Source: Chloroflexota bacterium (GTDB lineage: Bacteria; Chloroflexota; Anaerolineae; UBA1429). Taken from it: a stretch of 34,068 nt of DNA. Positions 1 to 5,651 of this stretch are shown one piece after another. The stretch's first letter is position 1, and each line of letters opens with the position of its first letter. The notes beneath the pieces were generated by a model, which worked only from the letters and a program-made list of their open reading frames with translations, had not been told where the DNA came from and did no database searches. A program made the translations under genes and the position numbers. The DNA lies in the NCBI GenBank assembly GCA_019873625.1, contig JAIOAW010000026.1, positions 1-34,068 on the forward strand, read 5' to 3'.

Positions 1-328
1 TGCGGGAGGGTTGCTGAAGCTGCGCTTCAGCACTCCATACTCGGAGCGCGGGCCTCCCGGCCCGCGACGCGAGGCAGGAGCCTCGCGCTCCTTATCCCCT
101 CTCCCGCGTTGGCGTGGGAGAGGGCTAGGGTGAGGGCCAAACACCCTCCTGCGACTTCAAGCCCTGCGGGAGGGTTGCTGAAGCTGCGCTTCAGCACTCC
201 ATACTCGGAGCGCGGGCCTCCCGGCCCGCGACGCGAGGCAGGAGCCTCGCGCTCCTTATCCCCTCTCCCGCGTTAGCGCGGGAGAGGGCTAGGGTGAGGG
301 CCAAACACCCTCCCGCGACTTCAAGCCC
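1..328. repeat. 164-bp tandem repeat, two copies, hairpin-rich
   Basis: Bases 1-164 and 165-328 are the same unit. I count three substitutions (111/275, 115/279, 150/314), so about 98% identity. A further 5 bases of unit-like sequence follow at 329-333, and the array may continue left of the window. In copy 1 the unit folds into a 9-bp stem (12-20 with 24-32), an 8-bp stem (47-54 with 59-66), a 7-bp stem (69-75 with 80-86) and a 12-bp stem (97-108 with 113-124). An alternative long-range pairing is 43-50 with 84-91. The 12-bp stem is perfect in copy 2 (261-272 with 277-288); in copy 1 the substitution at 115 leaves a G.U pair. The 12-bp hairpin resembles the REP-like palindromes scattered between genes in many GC-rich bacteria. 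No credible gene lies inside, so 1-430 is non-coding. Confidence 0.9.
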
Positions 329-2746: not shown

Positions 2747-4831
2747 TCATGGCCCCCAATGCGGCCACTGTTCCAGCGCCGTGCTCGTCGTCAGGTTGAG
2801 GCGCTCGCCCGTTTGCGTATCGAGGCGGTAGATATCCCAGCCCTTGTCTCGGTTTGAGTACCATACCAGGTAGCGGCCCCAGGGTGCCCAGGCGGGGCCG
2901 TGGTCGTTGGCATAGGTATCTTGGCTGAGGTTGCGCAGGTTCGAGCCATCCGGCGCGGCGCTATAGATTTCCATATTGCCGTCGCGGTAACTCTCCCAAG
3001 TGATCTCGCCCTCTGGCGACCACGTGGGCGCCTGGTCGGTAGCGGGGTCGTTCGTAAAGCGCACCACGGCACCCGTGGCCAGTTCAAGGATGTAGATCTC
3101 GAGGTTGCCGTCCCGATCGGAGACGAAGGCCAGCCGCGAGCCATCGGGGGACCAAGCAGGGCTGTAATCGGCGGCGCTGTGGCGCGTCAACCGCTTCGGG
3201 TTTGAGCCGTCGGCGTTCATCACATAGAGTTCCCAGTTGCCGTCTCGATACGAGGCAAAGGCAATCTGTTTGCCATCGGGCGACCATGTCGGCGTCCAAT
3301 CTTCGGCGGCGTTCCGCGTGAGGTTCTGCTGATCGCTCCCGTCGGCGTTCATCACATACACCTCGCGGTTGCCATCCCGGTCGGAGACGAAGGCGATGCG
3401 GCGCCCATCGGGCGAGACGGCCGGCGCCGTATCGTTTGCCTCGTTGAAGGTCAGGCGCGTGGGGTCCGAACCATCCGCCCGCATATGGTAAATGGCCCAT
3501 TTATCCTGCGGCGTGGCCTTGGCGATGTACACGATGCTCCCCCCTAAGACACCCCGCTCCGGCGTGATCGAGGGCACGGGCGATGGGGAATTGCCCGTTG
3601 GGGCCTCTTCTGGCGTGGGGGTTGCCGTCCAGATAGTTTGCACTTCGCGAGAACGCCACACAAAGGCAATGGCCCCCACCAGGAAGACGGCGATGGCGCT
3701 CAGCACCACGCTCATCCAATCGACGCGTTGGCGCCGCCAGGGAGAGATGGCCCTTTGGCGGATGGGTTGAACCCCCGGCGCGCGGCGCACCACCGCGGCG
3801 AGGCTCTGGGTCTGCTTGATCCAGTGAAAGAATAGCCCATTGCGGATGCGAAAGGTCCGCCCTCCCAATTCCTCCAAAATGCCCCGCCTTTCAAGGCGAT
3901 CGAGCACCTCGTCGGCGGCCTCTTTGGAGAGGCGCACGTGGGCGCGCGCCAAGTGCAGCATCACATCCTCGGCGGTGCCCAGGCCCTGGTTGCCGATGCG
4001 TTCCGCAAATACGCAGAGCACCACGCGCTCCAGGGGGCTGGCCGCCTGCCAAAGCGTTTCGAACTCCGCCGAGGCCTCGGCGACGATTCTCTCTGCGGCG
4101 CGGTCTACATCCGGCAGGCTCACCCAACCGTGGCGCTCGCGGGCCTCAAAAAGGAGCCGCCCGAAATGCTGGACGAAAAGCGGCTCCCCGCCGGAGAGGA
4201 CGTGAATGCGCCGCACGGATTCGGGGTCAAAGTGGATCGTTCCCTCGGTGAGGAACATCAGGAGTTCGGAGGTATCGTCAAGGGAGAAGGGGCCGAGCAC
4301 CAGCGTGCGGCCGGGCAGCGCCCCTAGGGGCTGGGTCATCTCCTCCGGTTTGCCCTCCACGGCGATCAGGATGGCCAGCGAAGGCGCTTGCCGCAGGGCC
4401 TCTGCGAGCGCCTCCAGGGCGTGCGCCCCGTTCATCTCCCCCAGGCTGCGGATGGGCAAGGCGTCAAAACAAAAGAGGGCGATACGCCCTTCGGGCACAT
4501 CGCGCTGAAGCGCCCGGAACGCCTCGGCGAGGGGAAGGGAGGGCGCCTCTTGCCCTAGGGTAGAGGCCATCTCGCGCATCAAAGCCTGAGGAACGGATGC
4601 CCCGGGCACAGGGGCCTCGCCCCACAGGATGTGATACACCTCGTAGCGACTGCCGAGCCGCAAAGGGAGTTGGTTGAGGAAAGAAGTCTTTCCGATGCGG
4701 CGTTTGCCAAAGAGGAAGAACAGCCGCGCGCCTTCCAAAAGCCCCTCTTGTAGGCGCTCAAACAGGGCATCTCGGCCGTAAAAGGGATCCTCTTCGGTTA
4801 GGGGGCGATCCGTGATAAACGGGTTGCGCAA
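2747..4831 (-). CDS. single-pass membrane protein: P-loop ATPase fused to PD40/TolB-like beta-propeller
   Basis: The 694-residue product has three parts. Residues 1-350 form a P-loop NTPase: the NPFITDRP...FYGRD opening is typical of AAA_16-type ATPases, Walker A is GKRRIGKTS (42-50), a Walker B-like strand ends ALFCFD (118-122), and a winged-helix-like region follows at about 265-340. A basic stretch (350-370) precedes one transmembrane helix (about 372-392). A Pro/Thr-rich linker (400-428) then leads to five or six PD40/TolB-like blades (430-694) with repeated SPDG, FVSDRDGN and MNADGS motifs. By the positive-inside rule the ATPase is cytoplasmic and the propeller extracytoplasmic. The start is TTG (4829-4831): an in-frame stop lies 42 bases upstream, shared with the preceding gene, and GGAG lies about 11 bases before it. 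Function is unknown; signalling across the membrane is an inference. Confidence 0.8.
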   Translation of the reverse strand: MRNPFITDRPLTEEDPFYGRDALFERLQEGLLEGARLFFLFGKRRIGKTSFLNQLPLRLGSRYEVYHILWGEAPVPGASVPQALMREMASTLGQEAPSLPLAEAFRALQRDVPEGRIALFCFDALPIRSLGEMNGAHALEALAEALRQAPSLAILIAVEGKPEEMTQPLGALPGRTLVLGPFSLDDTSELLMFLTEGTIHFDPESVRRIHVLSGGEPLFVQHFGRLLFEARERHGWVSLPDVDRAAERIVAEASAEFETLWQAASPLERVVLCVFAERIGNQGLGTAEDVMLHLARAHVRLSKEAADEVLDRLERRGILEELGGRTFRIRNGLFFHWIKQTQSLAAVVRRAPGVQPIRQRAISPWRRQRVDWMSVVLSAIAVFLVGAIAFVWRSREVQTIWTATPTPEEAPTGNSPSPVPSITPERGVLGGSIVYIAKATPQDKWAIYHMRADGSDPTRLTFNEANDTAPAVSPDGRRIAFVSDRDGNREVYVMNADGSDQQNLTRNAAEDWTPTWSPDGKQIAFASYRDGNWELYVMNADGSNPKRLTRHSAADYSPAWSPDGSRLAFVSDRDGNLEIYILELATGAVVRFTNDPATDQAPTWSPEGEITWESYRDGNMEIYSAAPDGSNLRNLSQDTYANDHGPAWAPWGRYLVWYSNRDKGWDIYRLDTQTGERLNLTTSTALEQWPHWGP

Positions 4832-4870: not shown

Positions 4871-5575
4871 TCACCCTCGGTAAAGGATGCGCCCGCATCC
4901 CTCGCAAAGGACGATCGTCTCATCGCCGCGCTCGATCATCTGAGCCTTTCCGGAGGGCACCGAGACGCGGCAAGCCTGACAAATGCCATCTCGCACGGGG
5001 GCGAGGGGCGTTCCCCCCTTGGTACGGCGCAGCGCATCGTATACCACGAGGGCACGCGCCTCGATTTGGCTCCGCAGGCGCTCGCGTTCCTCCTGCAAGG
5101 CCTGCAGGCGGGCGCGGAGTTCGTGATAGAGGGCCGTATCCGCCTCGCGTTCCGCGGCCCAATGCGCCTCGAAGGCGGCCAGTTCGGCCTCCCCCTGAGA
5201 GGTCTCGCGCTCCAGGGCCTCCACCGCTTCCATCAGGTCAAGGAGCGACTCTTCGATTTGGCTGATGCGCTGTTTGAGATGCTCGCAATCGCGCCGAAGG
5301 TTCTCCAATTCGCGTGAGGAGGTGATGCGCCCGCTGTAAAGGGCCTCTTCGGCCTGCCGAACCTTCTCTTGGAGTGTGCTCAATTCGAGTTCGCCATCTC
5401 GCAAGGCGCCACGCTTTTGGCTGAGGGCTGTTCGGCGGGCCTCTTGGGCTTGGCGCGCGGCCTCTAAAGGCGATGAATCGGCCAGGCGCTGGCGCACGGC
5501 CTGATAGAGCCGCCCCTTTTCATCCCACTCTTGATCTATGGCATTCAATCGGCAAAGGGCCTCGATGAGGTGCAC
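4871..5575 (-). CDS. COG1579-like coiled-coil protein with C4 zinc ribbon
   Basis: The 234-residue protein has a long N-terminal alpha-helical hairpin (about residues 1-180), rich in Glu, Arg, Leu and Ala heptads. A C-terminal zinc ribbon follows with two Cys pairs, C-x-x-C in ICQACR and C-x-x-C in LCEGCG. This is the layout of the COG1579 family of predicted nucleic-acid-binding proteins, common in Chloroflexota and Actinobacteria and with no settled function. The start is a GTG (5573-5575) placed 9 bases after GGGAGGG; the nearby ATG is out of frame. The ATPase/propeller gene follows 39 bases downstream on the same strand, so the two probably share a transcript. There is no signal peptide or membrane segment. 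Confidence 0.8.
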   Translation of the reverse strand: MHLIEALCRLNAIDQEWDEKGRLYQAVRQRLADSSPLEAARQAQEARRTALSQKRGALRDGELELSTLQEKVRQAEEALYSGRITSSRELENLRRDCEHLKQRISQIEESLLDLMEAVEALERETSQGEAELAAFEAHWAAEREADTALYHELRARLQALQEERERLRSQIEARALVVYDALRRTKGGTPLAPVRDGICQACRVSVPSGKAQMIERGDETIVLCEGCGRILYRG

Positions 5576-5622: not shown

Positions 5623-5651
5623 AGTATACCACGCCCTTAGGGGGGCGGCAA
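5623..5651 (-). promoter_or_regulatory. sigma-A promoter for the zinc-ribbon / ATPase-propeller pair
   Basis: On the minus strand a -35 TTGCCG (5646-5651) and a -10 TATACT (5623-5628) are 17 bases apart. Transcription would start near 5616, about 40 bases before the GTG start at 5575. The -35 box lies inside the last codons of the upstream glycosyltransferase gene. Confidence 0.65.

Follow-up and report, generated by a model that had tools for sequence, protein, structure and literature searches.

Invasion sensing in the cytoplasm is the role for which STAND proteins are mainly known. CED-4, the plant NLR resistosomes and the nSTAND1 proteins all combine an NTPase core and a winged helix with a C-terminal repeat domain, an order shared by the protein analyzed here, which is encoded on contig JAIOAW010000026.1 of the Chloroflexota assembly GCA_019873625.1 (the window, a stretch of 34,068 nt). 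In the window protein (the product of the minus-strand reading frame at 2747–4831), however, the sensor lies across a predicted membrane helix and is conserved instead of variable, there is no effector, and the catalytic acid has been lost in the lineage. The archaeal MNS-type STAND ATPases 2qen (PABY2304) and 2fna (SSO1545) have the fold of the NTPase core and winged helix in common with it at about 17–20% identity, but their chains carry neither a membrane helix nor a propeller.

A sensor placed across a membrane helix is also seen in STAND-TPR-membrane helix-FGE proteins and in the NACHT-CLec targets of DGRs (PMC10907252). These differ from the window protein in having TPR and FGE or C-type lectin domains in place of a PD40 propeller, and in the sequences compared their Walker motifs are intact. 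Six-bladed PD40 propellers are found both in the window protein and in TolB of the Tol-Pal system, which has an N-terminal TolA-binding domain where the window protein has a STAND module and a membrane helix. The product of the gene next to it shares a coiled coil and a C4 zinc ribbon with FlgZ (HP0958), CT398/CdsZ and MSMEG_4306 (COG1579/DUF164).

Architecture of the STAND-propeller protein

From N to C terminus, the window protein consists of a STAND P-loop NTPase with winged helix (residues 1–350), a basic patch, a hydrophobic helix, a Pro/Thr linker and a propeller (residues 430–694). The first-pass annotation, made from the letters of the window, had read this order in one frame with five or six blades; our analysis bears it out, and the model has six. 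It had further called the combination unusual, in line with which no model in Pfam, NCBIfam or PADLOC, nor any other curated family, spans the full protein, and a literature search mostly outside subscription journals found no description of a STAND or other ATPase joined to PD40 in Chloroflexi. As every part is conserved across 59 sequences, a chance arrangement is excluded, and the computational support for both architecture and conservation is strong.

Table 1. Features of the STAND-propeller locus (window coordinates; residues refer to the window protein).
Feature	Position	Strand	Basis or remark
Tandem duplication, 164 nt	1..328		98% identical; at contig end
STAND-propeller gene, complete	2747..4831	-	694 aa, TTG start; whole-chain AlphaFold2 model from 24 aligned sequences, mean pLDDT 87.3
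P-loop NTPase core, STAND clade, residues 1-235	4127..4831	-	nSTAND1 and AAA_16 matches in relatives; fold matches
Walker A GKRRIGKTS, residues 42-50	4682..4708	-	Lys in 52/59 members
Walker B Asp123, then Ala124 where an acidic residue is expected	4460..4465	-	Asp in 56/59 members
Helical part and winged helix, residues 236-350	3782..4126	-	secondary structure of model
Basic juxtamembrane stretch, residues 351-371	3719..3781	-	contains RRAPGVQPIRQRAISPWRRQR, just N-terminal to the hydrophobic helix; net charge
Predicted membrane helix, residues 372-396	3644..3718	-	hydropathy peak in every member; helix in both models
Disordered Pro/Thr linker, residues 397-429	3545..3643	-	pLDDT <50 at 396-426
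Six-bladed TolB-type propeller, velcro closure, residues 430-694	2750..3544	-	PD40; TolB structures; 51% mean pairwise identity
COG1579 gene, CT398-like coiled coil and C4 zinc ribbon	4871..5575	-	about 40 nt upstream of the STAND-propeller gene
Promoter-like site TTGCCG-17-TATACT, before the gene pair	5623..5651	-	consensus match only

The modeled fold assigns the NTPase half to the STAND clade: it has a P-loop core, which starts less than 20 residues from the N terminus, followed by a winged helix at about residues 255–335. The model matches the archaeal structures 2qen and 2fna with Z scores of 22 and 21 over about 310 residues, and CED-4 and the plant NLR resistosomes with Z scores of 15–17 over ~300 residues including the winged helix; Foldseek likewise returned STAND structures. 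The G-x-P motif that follows the core in STAND proteins is present as GGEP at residues 214–217, with its Pro in 59/59 members. The label "AAA_16-type" given in the first-pass annotation is right about a P-loop module and loose about the family: AAA_16 (PF13191) scores 22.8 bits in the window protein, below the Pfam gathering cut-off of 32.6, and although 22 of 24 relatives match AAA_16, the fold together with nSTAND1 matches in 14 of the 24 (best E 1.8e-11) favors STAND.

The C-terminal half matches PD40 in five stretches (E 2.8e-53), and in the model the first of the blades is closed by the last, C-terminal strand. It aligns to TolB structures over 268 residues (Z about 36, rmsd 2.2, 23% identity), and the TolB family TIGR02800 scores 202.7 bits against the whole protein, below the NCBIfam cut-off of 343. 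The repeat is visible even in the DNA, as a 132-nt unit in three copies at 3075–3445. Matches to the propeller elsewhere in the same genome reflect weak repeat similarity only, and we reject them as paralogues. OmpA/Pal domains were found in none of the 15 genomes searched, in which control searches were positive, and a role in Tol-Pal is therefore rejected.

The two halves are joined by a hydrophobic helix with a Kyte-Doolittle mean of 2.65 over 19 residues. A structure model had been proposed as a check on this helix, and both the whole-chain model and a second model of residues 1–430 (pLDDT 88.0, pTM 0.79) contain it. The pTM of the whole chain is 0.56, so the relative placement of the two halves is undefined, as expected given the flexible linker. 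Hydropathy and charge indicate that the NTPase half is likely cytoplasmic and the propeller outside: across the 59 members the 25 residues leading into the helix carry a mean net charge of +3.5, compared to -0.4 after it, and the side before the helix is the more positive one in 48 members. As this assignment rests on hydropathy and charge, and the charge rule does not favor an outside propeller in the remaining 11/59, one may ask whether the helix does not span the membrane or the propeller lies inside. We consider this highly improbable, as the strong hydrophobic peak is at the same place in every member and the window protein itself combines a strong basic signature on the NTPase side with a disordered Pro/Thr linker after the helix.

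Distribution and descent within Anaerolineae

The window genome is 97.6% complete and has one copy of the gene. An orthologue of the NTPase half was found in 14/14 other genomes of the same GTDB family, and further members turned up in many families when 396 genomes from the class Anaerolineae were searched; where the same loci have named records, these are Anaerolineae/Chloroflexi MAGs. Distant relatives were sought in genome contigs with an 11-row alignment, and in a within-phylum sample of 301 genomes no match outside the class reached the membrane helix. Our family comprises the fetched sequences that align over the full architecture, 59 including the window protein, all from Anaerolineae; in every one of them the hydrophobic helix lies between NTPase and propeller. 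In other proteins this NTPase is combined with different partners, for example in TPR-membrane helix-FGE and kinase architectures. At two loci (L061, L098) the STAND-TPR-membrane helix-FGE protein, another STAND architecture split by the membrane, is adjoined by a second STAND gene.

In a gene tree built with a quick method (branch support as SH-aLRT), each GTDB family forms one group. As the tree follows the GTDB families, inheritance looks vertical.

Conservation is strongly uneven along the chain. The propeller has a mean pairwise identity of 0.51 among the 59 members; the winged-helix part (0.32), the NTPase core (0.29) and the juxtamembrane stretch with the helix (0.20) lie lower. Within the propeller, identity is 0.54 for the same blade across proteins versus 0.33 between different blades, and residues including D511, W512, W533, E613, W665 and Q688 are near-invariant. 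This indicates selection on specific positions beyond mere conservation of a repeat, as expected if the ligand is fixed, and speaks against a diversifying or hypervariable immune sensor.

These data bear on the idea of a conflict or anti-phage sensor akin to Avs/nSTAND systems, in which the propeller would sense an invader. The similarity to nSTAND1 is in line with such a role, as is the description of STAND proteins with membrane segments and outside sensors in multicellular bacteria (PMC10907252). On the other hand, the protein has no effector domain, its sensor is the best-conserved part, GTDB families stay together in the tree, the gene neighbors are of housekeeping type, such as proC- and yggS-like genes, and PADLOC gave nothing but a weak match to PDC-S27 (E 2e-4 over 50 residues). 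A defense function is therefore very improbable.

Gene pairing with COG1579 and loss of catalytic residues

The gene upstream in the window encodes a COG1579 protein with matches above cut-off to CT398_CC (1.5e-13) and Zn_ribbon_9 (2.9e-8), and its two CxxC motifs (CQAC and CEGC) are present. Both genes are likely carried on one transcript, in line with the promoter-like site ahead of the COG1579 gene, a consensus match that was the sole one found between positions 2550 and 5800 (0.4 expected), with none between the two genes. COG1579 is directly upstream on the same strand in 14/14 members of the window family with sufficient contig, window included, and likewise directly upstream in three further GTDB families. 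Three other families have a FAD-dependent oxidoreductase gene in between (a DAO gene, at loci L046, L048, L142, L145, L146 and L155), and one has a gap of 1.6 kb, so that in total eight families, with 30 sequences, have COG1579 no more than 1.6 kb away. In the tree, a branch with 99% SH-aLRT support separates these COG1579-linked members from the rest.

COG1579 had been suggested as a possible partner, and as a conserved gene pair it remains a candidate; as a universal partner it is rejected, for it is absent nearby in 29/59 aligned members. In the sister group, 14 of those 29 have a methyltransferase gene directly upstream instead, often together with genes for a diacylglycerol-kinase-like protein and a PLP-dependent enzyme. 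At locus L163 (6832–9764), and similarly at L156, L157, L159, L161 and L164, radC-like, PLP aminotransferase-like, diacylglycerol-kinase-like (YegS) and methyltransferase genes precede the STAND-propeller gene in a conserved run, which hints at a link to lipids. The proC- and yggS-like genes are oriented convergently with the STAND-propeller gene in many genomes (L036, L038, L039, L042–L046); such a neighborhood is often tied to division clusters.

Relatives of COG1579 bind sigma-54 and regulators of secretion ATPases (PMC3372290, PMC5947703); CT398, for instance, binds the ATPase regulator CdsL (PMC5947703). A sigma-54 DNA-binding domain was found neither in the window genome nor in nine genomes of its family, and a role of COG1579 as an RpoN chaperone is rejected for the window lineage. 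COG1579 is also present in genomes without the STAND-propeller protein, and this, together with its absence beside half of the members, means that the pairing could reflect shared expression only.

The two sides of the tree also differ in their Walker residues. In the window protein, Lys48 and Asp123 are present and Ala124 is non-acidic, whereas related STAND proteins are acidic at this position. Across the family, the residue after the Walker B Asp is acidic in 30/59 members. The COG1579-linked group keeps this acid in 5/30 and the Walker A Lys in 23/30, the other group in 25/29 and 29/29 (p = 7e-8 for the acid and 0.01 for the Lys in Fisher tests, which ignore relatedness). Thus, Lys loss is confined to the COG1579-linked group, and loss of the catalytic acid occurs mostly there. 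Among 45 propeller-less sequences, including one truncated member of the propeller family, the Lys is present in 45/45 and the acidic residue in 44/45. The propeller family as a whole is without its relatives' Asp-Glu, with Glu in 3/59 members compared to nearly all propeller-less sequences, and the sister group mostly has Asp-Asp with an intact Walker A.

The first-pass annotation had envisaged that an outside binding event is passed to an ATP-driven switch inside, an idea that fares poorly here, with Ala124 in the window protein and the Walker A Lys missing in several close relatives. Such a switch, in which an outside ligand would trigger ATP binding, hydrolysis and oligomerization in the manner of STAND receptors, is compatible with the STAND fold with winged helix, with the Walker A motif and Walker B Asp that the window protein retains and with the Asp-Asp of the sister group, whose kept catalytic residues speak for nucleotide cycling there. 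Given Ala124 and the family-wide loss of Asp-Glu, we nevertheless consider it unlikely. For the window protein itself, nucleotide binding appears plausible and efficient hydrolysis doubtful. The inside half thus seems to be losing its ATP-splitting residues in the window's lineage, which points to a sensor or scaffold over an ATP-driven machine.

The same losses could be taken further, to a static envelope anchor whose propeller grips a wall or surface component while an inactive NTPase fold serves as a platform for cytoplasmic partners and no signal is passed. The Walker A Lys is lost in 7/59 members and the catalytic acid is gone in most COG1579-linked members, yet helix and propeller stay, as would be expected of an anchor. 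However, Walker A is intact in the 52 others, including the window protein, and comes with Asp-Asp in nearly all members of the other group, indicating that most lineages remain under selection for nucleotide binding; a purely static role is therefore rather unlikely.

A putative envelope sensor and docking scaffold

Our best fit, to which we give slightly less than an even chance, is a sensor or scaffold of the envelope to which a cytoplasmic partner docks, and which in the window lineage turns over little or no ATP. It builds on the retention of helix and propeller in 59/59 members, on the TolB type of the propeller and its blade-specific conservation far above that of the NTPase, on the STAND fold, on the COG1579 pairing over eight families and on the clade-specific catalytic loss. 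The protein would be a type II single-pass membrane protein with its propeller outside the cytoplasmic membrane, where we infer that it binds a conserved cell-envelope ligand, probably a wall component or a segment of a protein. The helix and the cytoplasmic STAND/winged-helix module may then change their position or oligomer state upon binding, a presumed outside-to-inside direction of signaling. In the window lineage, this module would most likely hold nucleotide, or keep the fold alone, without an efficient hydrolysis cycle, and act as a switch on which a cytoplasmic partner docks, for which the co-encoded coiled-coil/zinc-ribbon protein COG1579 is the most likely candidate. In TolB, binding of Pal or of a disordered colicin segment by the propeller is relayed to the other domain (PMC7391070), and by analogy TolB may serve as a model for a propeller that binds a partner and passes the event on.

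Taken further, the protein could stand for a bacterial receptor class that is new: a TolB-like propeller would drive, from outside the cell, a STAND module of the NLR/apoptosome type, and in the COG1579 lineage this module would work as a non-hydrolysing switch or as a pseudo-ATPase hub on which partners dock, in the service of a core function of the envelope or of gene expression; we regard this as possible though doubtful. The clade-specific loss of catalytic residues provides a natural series for testing if signaling by a STAND module requires ATP hydrolysis, and the pairing with COG1579 is a testable lead to the role of COG1579 in bacteria without sigma-54. A membrane-spanning STAND protein that appears to be vertically inherited and carries a highly conserved outside propeller suggests a core, non-defense use of STAND modules in a bacterial class that is large and has received little study.
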